A stretch of DNA of 64,000 nucleotides from Myxacorys californica WJT36-NPBG1 (GTDB taxonomy: Bacteria; Cyanobacteriota; Cyanobacteriia; Leptolyngbyales; Leptolyngbyaceae): the NCBI GenBank assembly GCA_019359315.1, contig JAHHHO010000015.1, positions 1 to 64,000 of the forward strand, read 5' to 3'. Shown here piece by piece: positions 26,749 to 45,591 of the stretch. A model generated the notes under the pieces. That model made no database searches. It saw nothing but the letters and a program-made list of their open reading frames with translations, and was not told where the DNA came from. Every line of letters starts with the position of its first letter. The stretch's first letter is position 1. The position numbers and the translations under genes are program-made.

Positions 26749-27843
26749 ATGGCGAAAGTAACGATCGCGGGATGTGGCATTGTTGGCGCTACGATCGCGT
26801 ATGAATTGAGCAAAGTTCCAGACTTCGACGTGACGGTTGTGGAGCAGCAGCCTGCACCTGTTGAACCGGATTTGAGTGTTTGTCCAAGCGCTACAGGGGC
26901 GGCACTCGGCGTGTTGATGGGGGCGATTAGCAAGAAAGAAAAGGGAAATAACCTACGGATGCGGTTGGCTGGCATCCAGTATTACGAACAGACGGTTCCA
27001 GAGTTAGAAGCGCTGACTGGACTAGCGATTCCGTTTAACCGTCAAGGTATTGTGATGCTCCAGTTTGAGCCGGATTTGTCGGTTTGGGAGCGGCTGATCA
27101 GGATTCGAGAGCAACAAGGGTGGATGCTGGAGATTTGGCAGCGCGATCACTTGCAGCAAGAGTTCCCGTTTCTCAATCTTGATCAGGTTTCGGCAGCCAT
27201 TTATTCTCCTCACGATCGTCAGGTGAATCCTGTTGCGTTGACTCGTGCGCTCATCGCGGCAGCAAAACTGAATGGAGCTACGTTCAAGTTTAATACGAGC
27301 GTTAGCGGCGCGACGGATCGGAGCGTGCAGACCTCAAACGGGGATATTGCCAGCGATTACTTCATTATTTCGGCGGGCTTAGGGTCTACCGCGCTAACCG
27401 CTGCGTTAGCGACTCCGGTTGATATTCGGCCTGTGCTAGGTCAAGCAATTGAGATTCGGTTGAAAGAACCGCTCTGCGCCAATTGCACCTTGCCAGTGAT
27501 CAGCGGAAATGATGTTCATCTTGTTCCATTGAGTGAGACGGAGTATTGGGTCGGCGCGACAGTGGAATTTCCAACAGAAGCAGGCTTGTCCTTACCGCCA
27601 GATGGCGCGATGTTTGAGGCAGTGATGGATCAAGCGATCGCATTTTGTCCTGCGATCGCTCAAGCCGAGATAATTCGCGCATGGTATGGGGTGCGTCCTC
27701 GTCCTCAGGGGCGACCTGCTCCAATTATTGAGACGCTTCCAGGCCATCCCCACATTTTGTTGGCAACGGGACACTATCGAAATGGAGTACTGCTTGCTCC
27801 TGCTACAGCCGCAAAGGTCAGAGAGACAATTTTGGGGAGTTGA
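26749..27843 (+). CDS. FAD-dependent amino-acid oxidase family protein (DadA/glycine-oxidase-like)
   Basis: A 364-residue flavoprotein. The Rossmann motif is at the N-terminus (VTIAGCGIVGATIAYELS, with Glu in VTVVEQQP). Typical DAAO-fold positions follow: SATGAALGVLMG, the substrate-domain strand NRQGIVMLQF, DRQVNPVALTRALIAAAK, and the C-terminal FAD contact WYGVRPRPQGRPAPIIETLP with ATGHYRNGVLLAPATA. This pattern is that of glycine oxidase/ThiO-like and related D-amino-acid oxidases; no fusion to thiazole synthase is present, so the thiamine role is only possible. The stop adjoins a tandem-repeat tract. Confidence 0.85.
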   Translation: MAKVTIAGCGIVGATIAYELSKVPDFDVTVVEQQPAPVEPDLSVCPSATGAALGVLMGAISKKEKGNNLRMRLAGIQYYEQTVPELEALTGLAIPFNRQGIVMLQFEPDLSVWERLIRIREQQGWMLEIWQRDHLQQEFPFLNLDQVSAAIYSPHDRQVNPVALTRALIAAAKLNGATFKFNTSVSGATDRSVQTSNGDIASDYFIISAGLGSTALTAALATPVDIRPVLGQAIEIRLKEPLCANCTLPVISGNDVHLVPLSETEYWVGATVEFPTEAGLSLPPDGAMFEAVMDQAIAFCPAIAQAEIIRAWYGVRPRPQGRPAPIIETLPGHPHILLATGHYRNGVLLAPATAAKVRETILGS

Positions 27844-27850
27844 AGCCGAA

Positions 27851-28060
27851 GGCTCGGGTTCTGAGCCTGAAGTTCCGCCTTCTGAGCCTGGAGTTCCGCG
27901 TTCTAGGCTTGAAGCATGAGGATCCGAAGGCGAAGTTCCGCGTTCTAGGCTTGAAGCATGAGGATCTGAAGGCGGAACTTCAGCATCTGAAGCTGAGACT
28001 CCAAGCTTTGAACTCGAAATCTCAGAGTCTGAAGTCAACCGCTCTACTGTTGAAGCAAAA
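27851..28060. repeat. 21-bp tandem minisatellite, about 10 units (locus 1)
   Basis: Starting just after the oxidase stop the DNA falls into ten consecutive 21-bp units, for example GTTCCGCCTTCTGAGCCTGGA, GTTCCGCGTTCTAGGCTTGAA and GCATGAGGATCTGAAGGCGGA, decaying toward the right. A 42-bp dimer (27892-27933 and 27934-27975) is almost perfectly repeated. The period is conserved across all units even where the bases differ. On the + strand it encodes a leucine-rich heptad in a frame from TTG 27840; this could be incidental. The period equals two turns of B-DNA. Confidence 0.85.
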
Positions 28061-43014: not shown

Positions 43015-43614
43015 TTAGGGAATTAAGTCATACACTCGCCGAACAAACTCGCTTTCTGTGATCGCTCCACGAAAGAACTGATTTTTAACCTGGCTTAAAT
43101 CACTTCTAAGTTTTCTTAGCGATTCAAGTTCTGAGGGAGACGGAGTTGGGCTAGGTGAAGGGGTTTGAATGGCGCGGGCATCGGCATCTAGCTGGCGACG
43201 AACGGAGATCGCCGCAATACCTGTGACTGGAAATCGTCGATTGCGCTGATAAACCTTGACAATACTATAAGTTTCGCGACGGTAGTTGCCTGTAATCGGC
43301 AGAGATAGCCCAGTGACGATCTTGAGATTGTTTTGAAGAATTTTTACGGTTTTCTCGACGGTCGCTCGCAGGTCAACTCCGTCTTTACCATCGGGAGTGA
43401 GGTTTGCATCCTGCTGAAACTGCGCGATCGCGGCTTGAGTATAGGTTTCGACATACTCCAGTCCGCGCAGTGCAGTTGTAGCACAATCGATATTTCCTAA
43501 GACATCGCGATCGCAGGCGTTGAAATTATTTCCCAGTCCATCTAATCCGCGTGGACCTAAGTAGTAGCCTAACCCGTCTAGATTTTCCCTGAGATCGACG
43601 AGAGACAATGGCAT
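43015..43614 (-). CDS. Hypothetical protein with peptidoglycan-binding-like repeats
   Basis: From ATG 43614 the product has 199 residues. Residues about 80-145 (VKILQNNLKIVTGLSLPITGNYRRETYSIVKVYQRNRRFPVTG) have the spacing of a PG_binding_1 domain, and an earlier segment (YTQAAIAQFQQDANLTPDGKDG) looks like a first copy. A Ser/Pro linker and a helical end (RSDLSQVKNQFFRGAITESEFVRRVYDLI) with an SHOCT-like short-helix pattern follow. No signal peptide is apparent, so localisation is unclear. AAGGA is about 10 bases before the ATG. Confidence 0.65.
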   Translation of the reverse strand: MPLSLVDLRENLDGLGYYLGPRGLDGLGNNFNACDRDVLGNIDCATTALRGLEYVETYTQAAIAQFQQDANLTPDGKDGVDLRATVEKTVKILQNNLKIVTGLSLPITGNYRRETYSIVKVYQRNRRFPVTGIAAISVRRQLDADARAIQTPSPSPTPSPSELESLRKLRSDLSQVKNQFFRGAITESEFVRRVYDLIP

Positions 43615-43623
43615 AACGTTCAA

Positions 43624-44282
43624 TCCTTTCTGAACTGGTAGATGGTCTAGAGAAGAATGATAAATCCCAGCGTTACAGATTTACCGCTAATTGAAGACTA
43701 CTTTATACACTGTCGAAAGGGACTTTAGCATCATTTCTAGCGATTGATAGGAAGTTTCTTGCTCCTAAGGCAGCGTTGCTTCGCGCCGTTGAAATGTTCC
43801 TTCATACTGATGGACAGTTTCTTCGCAGAGATGGACAGTTTCTTTGGGTCAATAGGAATGCTTCTTCATACTGATGGACAGTTTCTTCGCACGAATGGGC
43901 AGCTTCTTTGCATGGATGGACAGTTTCTTCGCACGGATGGACAGTTTCTTCACGCTGATCGAATGGTTCTGTTTTATAGATGTTCATTGCTTCCCTCCTT
44001 CCCATTTGTGAATCTCCGGCGTGTAAGTTTTTATACATTGTGCTTTCTTAATTACTTTGGGGAACTGTGCTGGTAGGTTGTTGCACACTCTTTCAAGGAT
44101 GATGATAAAGATCTACTGAAGGGATAGAAGCCCACTTTGTTAATGGGGCTACTATACGGATGAAGCTCTGTATGAACTGCTGCACAGAATTGGTACAGCG
44201 ATCGCTGTCTGTCTAATCAATTGTTACCGCGTTCTAGTTTTGGGAATTCTACGAGAGCTTAACTATTGAATTTCCAGTCAAG
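43624..44282. other. About 660-bp region without a convincing gene, holding a minisatellite
   Basis: The central part is a 21-bp repeat tract (43788-43977). Frames crossing it on both strands (for instance 43744-44076 and the reverse 43802-44038) exist only because the repeat period is a multiple of three. The right 300 bp, ahead of the next gene, shows no coding frame with a plausible start. Confidence 0.55.
43788..43977. repeat. 21-bp tandem minisatellite, about 9 units (locus 2)
   Basis: GATGGACAGTTTCTT or close variants begin at 43809, 43830, 43873, 43915 and 43936, with weaker units at 43788, 43851, 43894 and 43957. Spacing is 21 bp apart from one 22-bp step. A T-rich core (GTTTCTTC) is centred in each unit. 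On the reverse strand the repeat reads as heptads of the form CEETVHP. Same period as locus 1 at 27851-28060 but different unit sequence. Confidence 0.88.
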
Positions 44283-44852
44283 ATGTATACAAGAGAATGG
44301 TTGGTAACTAGAACTCGCTTTTACCAAAGTTTCGGTTTCTTTGCAGATTACGCGGATCTATCTGATGAAGAACTTGCTGATCAGATCATCCGTCTACGTC
44401 AAGTGGAAACAGAAAGGGAAATCGCCAAACTTTTTCATGAGGGGCATGACTGGTTACTTCTAAAACTTGATGCAAAGAGAGTTTTGAGTACTGCTACAGA
44501 TATTCTCTATGCTGAAGAACCGCCAGATTACAATTTTGATACTTTCGTAGAGACGATCCAACAACTAGGCTCTATTTCTCGCGGCGCTTTCATTCCGCAA
44601 AATATACGAGAAGCAGAGCCTAGTGTAATTGAATTTGTCCTCAATGGGCAAAGCTTCTCTTTTGTTCCTGAAGGTCCGCCTGATGATCCGCTTATTCTCG
44701 TTAGTCAAATCAATCCAATGATCGTAGAGACTGGTTATCAATTCAAGCAATGGGACTTGTCTCCAGACGTGTTCATTTTTGCGATGACAGTAGAAGAGGT
44801 AGAGCGGCTGGGATGGAGATTTCTTCCTGATCGATGGATGTTCAATGAGTAA
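44283..44852 (+). CDS. Hypothetical protein
   Basis: A 189-residue soluble protein, not recognised. The first 75 residues are helical and charged (LSDEELADQIIRLRQVETEREIAKLF). The rest is mixed alpha/beta, with several strand-like stretches (SVIEFVLNGQSFSFVPEG, DPLILVSQINPMIVETG) and an aromatic-rich end (RLGWRFLPDRWMFNE). No metal or nucleotide motif is visible. Composition and the clear ATG 44283 support it as a real gene; the shape would fit an immunity-type protein but there is no toxin beside it. Confidence 0.65.
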   Translation: MYTREWLVTRTRFYQSFGFFADYADLSDEELADQIIRLRQVETEREIAKLFHEGHDWLLLKLDAKRVLSTATDILYAEEPPDYNFDTFVETIQQLGSISRGAFIPQNIREAEPSVIEFVLNGQSFSFVPEGPPDDPLILVSQINPMIVETGYQFKQWDLSPDVFIFAMTVEEVERLGWRFLPDRWMFNE

Positions 44853-44950: not shown

Positions 44951-45226
44951 ATGGCAGTTAGACAACGACGTTACAGCAAAGAAGAGTTAGCCCAACGGGG
45001 GCAGGAACTCTACGAGTCTGGTATTCGGCAGCAGGTCGAAGCGGGCAACGATGGCAAAATTGTGGCGATCGACATCGAAACTGGAGATTTTGAAGTTGGT
45101 GACACGATCATCGCTGCAACTGATCGGCTATTTGAACGCAATCCTGATGCTCAACCTTGGGGGATTCGGATCGGGCACCGCGCCGTCTATCATTTTGGAT
45201 CGCGGAGTCTGAAAAAGAATCAATGA
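44951..45226 (+). CDS. Small partner protein of a retropepsin-like protease
   Basis: From ATG 44951 the product has 91 residues. A basic N-terminus (AVRQRRYSKEELAQRG) leads to KIVAIDIETGDFEVGDTIIAATDRLFERNPDAQPWGIRIGHRAVYHFG, a pattern I have seen in small cyanobacterial proteins encoded in front of clan AA aspartic proteases. The stop overlaps the protease start (ATGA). Role unknown; the antitoxin-like size and coupling are suggestive only. Confidence 0.75.
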   Translation: MAVRQRRYSKEELAQRGQELYESGIRQQVEAGNDGKIVAIDIETGDFEVGDTIIAATDRLFERNPDAQPWGIRIGHRAVYHFGSRSLKKNQ

Positions 45227-45591
45227 TTTGCGGAGTCGTAAATTTGCGTCGTGAAGCAACACTCCCCCTAGTGGTTGGTAACTCGTCTGGGCAACGGCAA
45301 GTCATCGATACCGTCATTGACACTGGATTCGATGTTTTTTTGTCTTTGCCATCTGAAGCGATTGTTCGCCTTGAATTGCCTTGGACTATTTCTAATACTG
45401 TGACCTTGGGGGATGGCAGTCAAACCCTGTTTGATTTATATCGCGGGACTGTTATTTGGGATGGGCAATACCGCGAGATCGATATTGCAGAATCAGAAAC
45501 GGAACCATTGCTCGGAATGGCGATGCTCTACGGTTATCGATTACAGGTTGATACTGTTGAGGGCGGCATCGTCAAAATTGCACCCTTGTGA
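45223..45591 (+). CDS. Clan AA (retropepsin-like) aspartic protease
   Basis: From ATG 45223 about 122 residues. The catalytic-type motif VIDTVIDTGFDVFLSLP (Asp-Thr-Gly) sits at residues 29-45, followed by beta strands and the second conserved region EPLLGMAMLYGYRLQVDTVEGG, as in bacterial single-lobe retropepsins, which act as dimers. It is coupled by ATGA to the small upstream gene. Substrates of such bacterial proteins are unknown. The alternative start GTG/ATG at 45157 lies inside the partner gene and is rejected. Confidence 0.8.
   Translation: MICGVVNLRREATLPLVVGNSSGQRQVIDTVIDTGFDVFLSLPSEAIVRLELPWTISNTVTLGDGSQTLFDLYRGTVIWDGQYREIDIAESETEPLLGMAMLYGYRLQVDTVEGGIVKIAPL

Follow-up and report, generated by a model that had tools for sequence, protein, structure and literature searches.

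Two tandem arrays lie within the window, meaning the whole stretch of 64,000 nucleotides that was analysed, and their units are unrelated in sequence, their period being identical. This raises the question of what keeps a step of 21 bp when the letters differ, and whether the second array (here, the window array) stands alone or is part of a larger system. The original prediction, that two unrelated units have a 21-bp step in common, was confirmed by comparing both tracts, and the coordinates of the features discussed below are collected in Table 1.

Table 1. Arrays and neighbouring genes, by position in the window or by locus
Feature	Position or locus	Strand	Description
21-bp tandem array, family A (window array)	43746..43972	-	11 units, the outer ones degenerate; core GAAGAAACTGTCCATC plus about 5 variable bases; a single step of 22 bp
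BLAST homology to the C100 array of the same genome	43727..43977	-	without the 5' hairpin present in the C100 and C92 copies
Neighbour gene, peptidoglycan-binding domain protein (PF01471)	43015..43623	-	outside the array-protein system; sister species G001 has the ortholog
Neighbour ORF, 189 aa, no Pfam match	44283..44852	+	among 38 genomes searched, present in the own one and, weakly, in one other; differs from the array-linked protein
First tract, family B 21/42-bp array	27820..28040	+	unit type gene-linked at C120:82.3k; with matches in 14 of 42 Leptolyngbyaceae genomes, the own one among them
HsdR-like	L184/L164		same strand, after gene and array
N6 methylase	L185/L165, L198/L158		same strand, after gene and array
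HSDR_N	L188/L162		same strand, after gene and array
SMEK-NACHT	L189; L157 (array-linked gene broken)		same strand, after gene and array
TIR	L186		same strand, after gene and array
NB-ARC	L191/L179		Pfam only; L191 array weak
Arrays without the gene	L156; L161, L176		by N6 methylase (L156); by MmeI-type enzymes (L161, L176)

The window array and its copies

Anchored on the minus strand at matches to at least 9 of the 16 letters of GAAGAAACTGTCCATC, eleven unit starts follow one another from 43972 down to 43746, nine of the ten steps measuring 21 bp and the remaining one 22 bp, with the core matched at 16 of 16 letters in four units and at 15 of 16 in one. Tandem Repeats Finder reports the stretch 43809-43951 (period 21, 6.8 copies, 72% matches, score 135). 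As a control for chance, 268 kb were shuffled in blocks of 200 bases, and at the thresholds applied none of the periods from 9 to 70 produced a hit. The intergenic minisatellite with a single 22-bp step, as proposed at the outset, is confirmed here as a non-coding array of 11 units. A conserved coding (heptad) repeat was rejected, as the frame used differs between homologous copies, several of them have stops and 22-bp steps occur. The unit of the window array has no dyad symmetry (z -0.9). An RNA hairpin array was also rejected for this copy, which folds worse than permuted controls on the two strands (+1.3 and +1.4).

The array is flanked by the predicted gene 43015-43623 and by the ORF 44283-44852, the next gene, by the simple gene caller of the period scan, being 45157-45591 (+). 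In the genomes G004 and G010, the ortholog of 43015-43623 adjoins another gene, presumably for a signal-peptidase as read by eye, with no array within the stretches examined. Since this ortholog is without array in both genomes and the ORF at 44283 is almost confined to the own genome, the window array is located in a variable segment.

Elsewhere in the same genome (G000; 128 contigs, 5.97 Mb in total), the type A unit occurs only at C100:4.2-4.5k and C92:76.4-76.6k, as seen by BLAST and pattern search, and both copies start with a nearly identical hairpin, AACGTTTCTATC-TCAA-GATAGGAACGTT, followed by T's. This hairpin has no further match, with up to 3 mismatches, among the 58 genomes searched, and the exact two-unit type A pattern was found in no other record among 84,980 species, a collection that possibly excludes the own genome. 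The C100 copy consists of hairpin and array without a gene. At C92, the unit stands behind a gene, as it does behind the 81%-identical relative of that gene in another genus (L199, genome G059), and a colinear match of 202 bp at 73% links the two loci, starting at the hairpin and reaching into the repeats. With the unit type found behind the C92 gene, the window array is an orphan of this cis-linked protein-array system. A plasmid or phage origin was rejected on null searches, the window array being unmatched in plasmids, neither the array pattern nor the protein being found in viral contigs, and a further search giving no phage.

Periods of intergenic arrays in the genome

A period-blind autocorrelation scan was applied to 52 stretches of the genome (1,034,115 bases, 17%), chosen by contig number and not randomly, with gene calls made by a simple codon-score script. 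Among the 40 intergenic arrays found, the period is 21 bp in 22, 42 bp in 3 and 84 bp in 1, the remaining ones being at 20 and 41 bp (two each) and at 14, 15, 22, 24, 27, 51, 60, 71, 85 and 96 bp (one each). Arrays inside predicted genes (n = 18) have mixed periods, with 21, 63 and 126 bp once each. The original prediction stood or fell with an excess of 21 bp over other multiples of three, and such an excess was found, 26 of the 40 intergenic arrays being at 21, 42 or 84 bp and at most two at any other period. These 26 arrays belong to about 16 unit families according to our own assignment from profile comparison scores (three arrays in A, six in B, two in C, three in D and twelve single), which supports the claim that the period rather than the letters is what they have in common. 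A side observation concerns the 21-bp array at L110:10367-10577, with units in both orientations (ATCAACATTGATCAAGAACA type) and the strongest plus-strand fold of the 26 (z -7.7).

As periods of 20, 22, 41 and 85 bp also occur, codons are not the cause of the 21-bp step. Exact two-copy duplications in intergenic DNA (at least 13 matching bases, n = 47), counted with arrays and the 50 bases around them omitted, are spread over 9-27 bp, with 2 at 21 bp and 1 at 42 bp. A general bias of new duplications toward 21 bp was rejected on this count (2 of 47), and the step seemingly is not set at the birth of a duplication, with the arrays, inside which exact 21- and 42-bp repeats are frequent, being left out of the comparison.

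A protein gene beside the arrays

The same kind of gene is located directly upstream of several type B loci and of the type A locus C92, encoding array-linked proteins of about 164 residues (those of L154 and L003 being 45% identical). Searches of 56 members in Pfam gave a weak match in only three, each to a different family, and nothing convincing was found in NCBIfam, PADLOC and PHROGs (three proteins each) or in PDB sequence searches. The last 30 residues carry a mean net charge of +2.5, the whole protein being slightly acidic (-1.4). The gene is present in 24 of 42 Leptolyngbyaceae genomes, own included, with 1-10 matches each, and in 11 of 244 genomes sampled evenly across the cyanobacterial phylum, namely the own genome, G012, eight of a second family (f28) and one of f16. 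The own genome has six gene loci, one of them in two pieces. In addition, a homolog with 51% identity was noticed on plasmid pTs417 of the purple sulfur bacterium Candidatus Thiodictyon syntrophicum (L254:4995-5462), without an array and between the genes of arginine decarboxylase and pyruvate kinase.

Regarding the linkage, 50 of 70 Leptolyngbyaceae gene loci have a downstream array with a lag of 21, 42 or 63 bp within about 700 bp (lag score of at least 38/63), often not more than 100 bp behind the stop codon of the gene. An upstream array is present at 8 loci, being the only one at 7, so that 57 loci have an array on either side and 13 on neither; another period (12-63) was found downstream at 2. 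As controls, the genes of the own genome have a downstream array of the 21 type in 17 of 615 cases and of another period in 15, and tiles of related genomes contain them in 15 and 39 of 1434 cases, respectively, giving a Fisher p of about 1e-44 against the genes and 3e-63 against the tiles, with the caveat that counts from related genomes are interdependent. Six genes found beside arrays were the basis of the seed alignment A1, and 45 of 64 loci keep the array when these are taken away. In f28, 19 of 20 fetched loci have an array (800 bp searched, same threshold), and the single f16 locus has none within 800 bp. The best lag at the scoring Leptolyngbyaceae loci (n = 55) is 21 in 33, 42 in 18 and 43 in 4, and at the other scoring loci (n = 19) 21 in 5, 42 in 13 and 23 in 1; gene-linked arrays are therefore at 21/42 in 69 of 74 scoring loci from two families. 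The loci L215, L220, L205, L204, L226, L228 and L230 have a 21/42-bp array upstream, with the best stretch starting about 220-450 bp before the gene, and none downstream. As seen by eye, the unit at L214 (C21) resembles type D, and that at L216 (C116) resembles the array L038:17.2k.

The units resemble one another more as protein identity rises, and below 60% identity their similarity is close to background, with a Mantel r of 0.62 for 48 arrays (largest of 1000 permutations 0.19) and of 0.47, compared to 0.135, for pairs less than 75% identical. The units drift with the protein, and the period hardly does. Since gene and array are physically linked, the correlation can be explained by shared descent alone. 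The constant step of gene-linked arrays compared to the drifted steps elsewhere, along with the lost similarity of units, speaks for a constraint without proving it.

Many arrays of the own genome are orphans, as the gene lies within 1.5 kb of two of its 32 intergenic arrays with periods near two or four turns. Near the rest, the window array among them, tblastn gave only weak matches to the gene, the best with an E of 0.003 at L052 and the next 0.017. Unit types A and B are found at both gene-linked and orphan sites, the window holding one of each. Among relatives, the sister species G001 has zero intergenic 21-bp arrays in 187 kb, and G004 has two intergenic arrays (21 and 42 bp) in 220 kb, 72 kb of it non-coding. 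Sampling of about 117 kb of non-coding DNA from the gene-bearing G001, G003, G005, G012 and G032, and of about 92 kb from the gene-lacking G006, G007, G008, G010, G014 and G016, gave no intergenic array whose fundamental period is 21 or 42, with G006 carrying an intergenic array with lags of 44, 40 and 84 (L144:6764-6990) and G016 a type B match. The idea that genomes with the gene are also rich in arrays was set aside, the samples being too small and the trend not in its favour. Since these five gene-bearing relatives lack such arrays in the samples, the many orphans are a trait of this genome and not of all gene-bearers.

At several type B loci of several genomes, the gene, the 21-bp array and a defence-type gene follow one another on one strand (Table 1). 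PADLOC matched 9 of the first ten neighbour ORFs, a fraction that is biased because these were partly picked for restriction-enzyme-like starts, and 2 of a further ten. Neighbours of the MPYQN group gave no PADLOC match (0 of 10), and no defence-type neighbour was seen by eye at L187 (own genome), L200, L201 and L209.

Possible explanations and known systems

The protein and its array point to a hitherto undescribed protein-and-repeat system. As the preferred reading, to which a probability of roughly 0.4 is given from sequence comparison, the protein of about 164 aa would read its own array as double-stranded DNA, with one unit per two helical turns. Each paralog, acting as a dimer or higher multimer, would bind its own unit on double-stranded DNA, and one unit per two turns would place all copies on one face of the helix, leading to a cooperative nucleoprotein stretch. 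Gene-linked arrays would then be the control or nucleation site of the protein itself, and orphan arrays may act as further binding stretches or sinks. Each unit would be free to drift while the protein drifts along, and selection would hold the spacing because, in this proposal, spacing alone sets the helix face. This is favoured by the linkage, the constancy of the period, the unit-protein Mantel correlation, the colinearity of C92 and L199, the C-terminal charge of +2.5, the missing 21-bp peak among duplications and a tendency of the units to dyad symmetry (mean z 1.17 for 26 arrays, each member of a family being counted on its own). Against it stand the window unit, which is without dyad symmetry and folds less than its permuted controls, the 13 of 70 loci without array and the 7 with one only upstream, the Thiodictyon and f16 copies without array and the modest charge of the tail, as well as the route to the correlation by shared descent, the five gene-bearing relatives without arrays in the samples, the array in gene-lacking G006 and the type B match in gene-lacking G016. 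Tentatively, the system could represent a new class, in which a spacing-recognising protein has freely co-evolving units, its modules having been recruited before restriction, STAND and TIR genes and its orphans having colonised the intergenic DNA of Myxacorys.

The main rival, considered somewhat unlikely, is an inherited period without function, where duplications of a terminator hairpin would have given rise to the arrays, unequal exchange and slippage holding the step as the letters turn over and pieces spread to intergenic sites. Between gene and array, a search by pattern within the first 260 bases gave a covarying hairpin with a T-run at 10 of the 70 loci, 26-174 bases past the stop codon (L209:2049-2086, L199:2048-2085 and eight other loci), and it is probably the terminator of the array-linked gene. 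In its alignment, which includes the C100 orphan, 97.1% of cells are paired, with 8 changed on both sides compared to a shuffled mean of 2.9. As its two AACGTT arms are spaced by 21 bp in L194, L196 and L202 and by 22 bp in L209, with covarying pairs, the step might be a relic of hairpins that were repeated; in the same direction, the units of type D and of L194/L196 look by eye like repeated hairpin arms, and orphan arrays include the drifted periods 20, 22 and 41. However, neutral drift should shift the step too, yet 69 of 74 loci remain at 21/42 with unit similarity near background below 60% identity, the hairpin pattern is absent from type B and MPYQN-group loci, and slippage alone leaves the linkage to one gene family unexplained. 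It is unlikely, too, that the arrays belong to a self-spreading element whose protein, or a partner of it, copies the array to new intergenic sites. This would be similar to RAYT-REPIN (REP) systems, where one gene has sequence-matched repeats beside it and others dispersed in intergenic DNA, and the own genome does have flank-matching repeats of types A and B dispersed through it, few genes (six loci) for numerous orphan arrays whose unit types match in part, a hairpin with array but no gene at C100, and weak gene matches near orphans. On the other hand, no transposase or recombinase domain was found in the array-linked protein, a Pfam match to the Y1/IS200-type transposase being found in 0 of 56 members, and the arrays are long and head-to-tail with a freely varying 21-bp unit, compared to the single palindromes of RAYT-REPIN. 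Moreover, no empty site is shown in G001, where the contig ends 223 bp past the ortholog of 43015-43623 and the gene flanking the C100 copy has no match.

Two further explanations place the function in the repeats as RNA or as shaped DNA. For the first, which appears quite improbable, the array would be transcribed and the protein would bind the repeated RNA, as in CsrA/CsrB or in type III toxin-antitoxin systems (ToxIN), the latter having repeat units of about 35-60 bp. Arrays downstream of the gene and often within 100 bp of its stop would suit this, and many of the 26 arrays at 21, 42 or 84 bp have a stronger fold than their column-permuted versions, the mean z being -1.6 for either strand, with negative values in 20 arrays on plus and 21 on minus; likewise, ToxIN resembles the present loci in having a gene of about 160-170 codons beside a tandem array, with some copies here by defence genes. 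Nevertheless, the window array folds worse than its controls, both strands fold about equally, a terminator-like hairpin with T-run separates gene and array at type A loci, and an RNA target has no need of an exact two-turn step. Compared to ToxIN, the array is downstream at 50 of 70 loci and only upstream at 7, the units measure 21 bp and the three proteins searched have no PADLOC match. As for DNA shaping by phased T-rich cores (curvature or HU-type binding), which the original prediction had proposed, it would now be very improbable. One T-rich core per 21 bp does fall on one face by construction, but neither AA/TT nor A+T has a 10-11 bp signal within the units, so that A-tract curvature is not evident, and purines have a negative value at 10-11 bp. 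The composition also varies from A+T-rich units (L026, L029:6.7k) to GATCGC-containing ones (L040), and the linkage to the gene is left unexplained. What stands from that earlier reading is the period as the common property, while its curvature detail is not supported and the tie to a protein gene had been missed.

Reading of the array by the protein, one unit per two turns, also has to be compared with known repeats. Iterons and centromeres of plasmids (RepA iterons, ParR-parC) likewise combine a gene for a protein with a short neighbouring array, whose step is close to two helical turns. Differently, the arrays described here are on chromosome-sized contigs, mostly downstream of the gene and often of ten or more units, the unit differs between paralogs, orphans are many and the protein is without a Pfam match. 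In the cyanobacterial STRR (short tandemly repeated repetitive) heptamers, the unit is 7 bp long. TAACTGA heptamer arrays (PMC4679880) are intergenic tandem repeats with no known function and many loci per genome, and the SPADE survey gives heptamers as the most abundant intergenic repeats, with periods that are multiples of three being overrepresented (PMC6344855). The arrays studied here are likewise intergenic, without known function and present at many loci per genome, but their step differs from that of 7 bp. The 7-bp component, taken as the third-harmonic share of power, is 0.02-0.10 in type A, 0.27-0.32 in type B and 0.20-0.26 in L026, L038:17.2k, L052 and L102; a heptamer origin of type A was rejected, as it has no 7-bp signal, and type B and a few others have a 7-bp sub-structure, for which such an origin may hold. 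Heptamer-based arrays were observed in relatives at L076-L079 (G005, many), L064 (G003), L089 (G014) and L092 (G016). CRISPR was rejected, as the units are head-to-tail at 21 bp with homogenised cores and no unique spacers, and no cas genes were found in 20 neighbour ORFs by Pfam and PADLOC. A full-text literature search, at the level of titles and abstract openings, gave no account of cyanobacterial 21-bp arrays or of the gene-array pair.

Intergenic tandem repeats are common in bacteria and mostly unexplained, and the present repeats, almost constant in period and free in sequence, are genetically linked to one protein family in two cyanobacterial families. This linkage makes the function of the repeats addressable by a direct binding and deletion experiment. 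The copies located directly upstream of defence genes are a possible lead on the control of those genes. If the protein does read its array at one unit per two turns, this would be a naturally occurring example of helical-phase recognition, in which protein and array co-evolve, and may be useful for studies of specificity.
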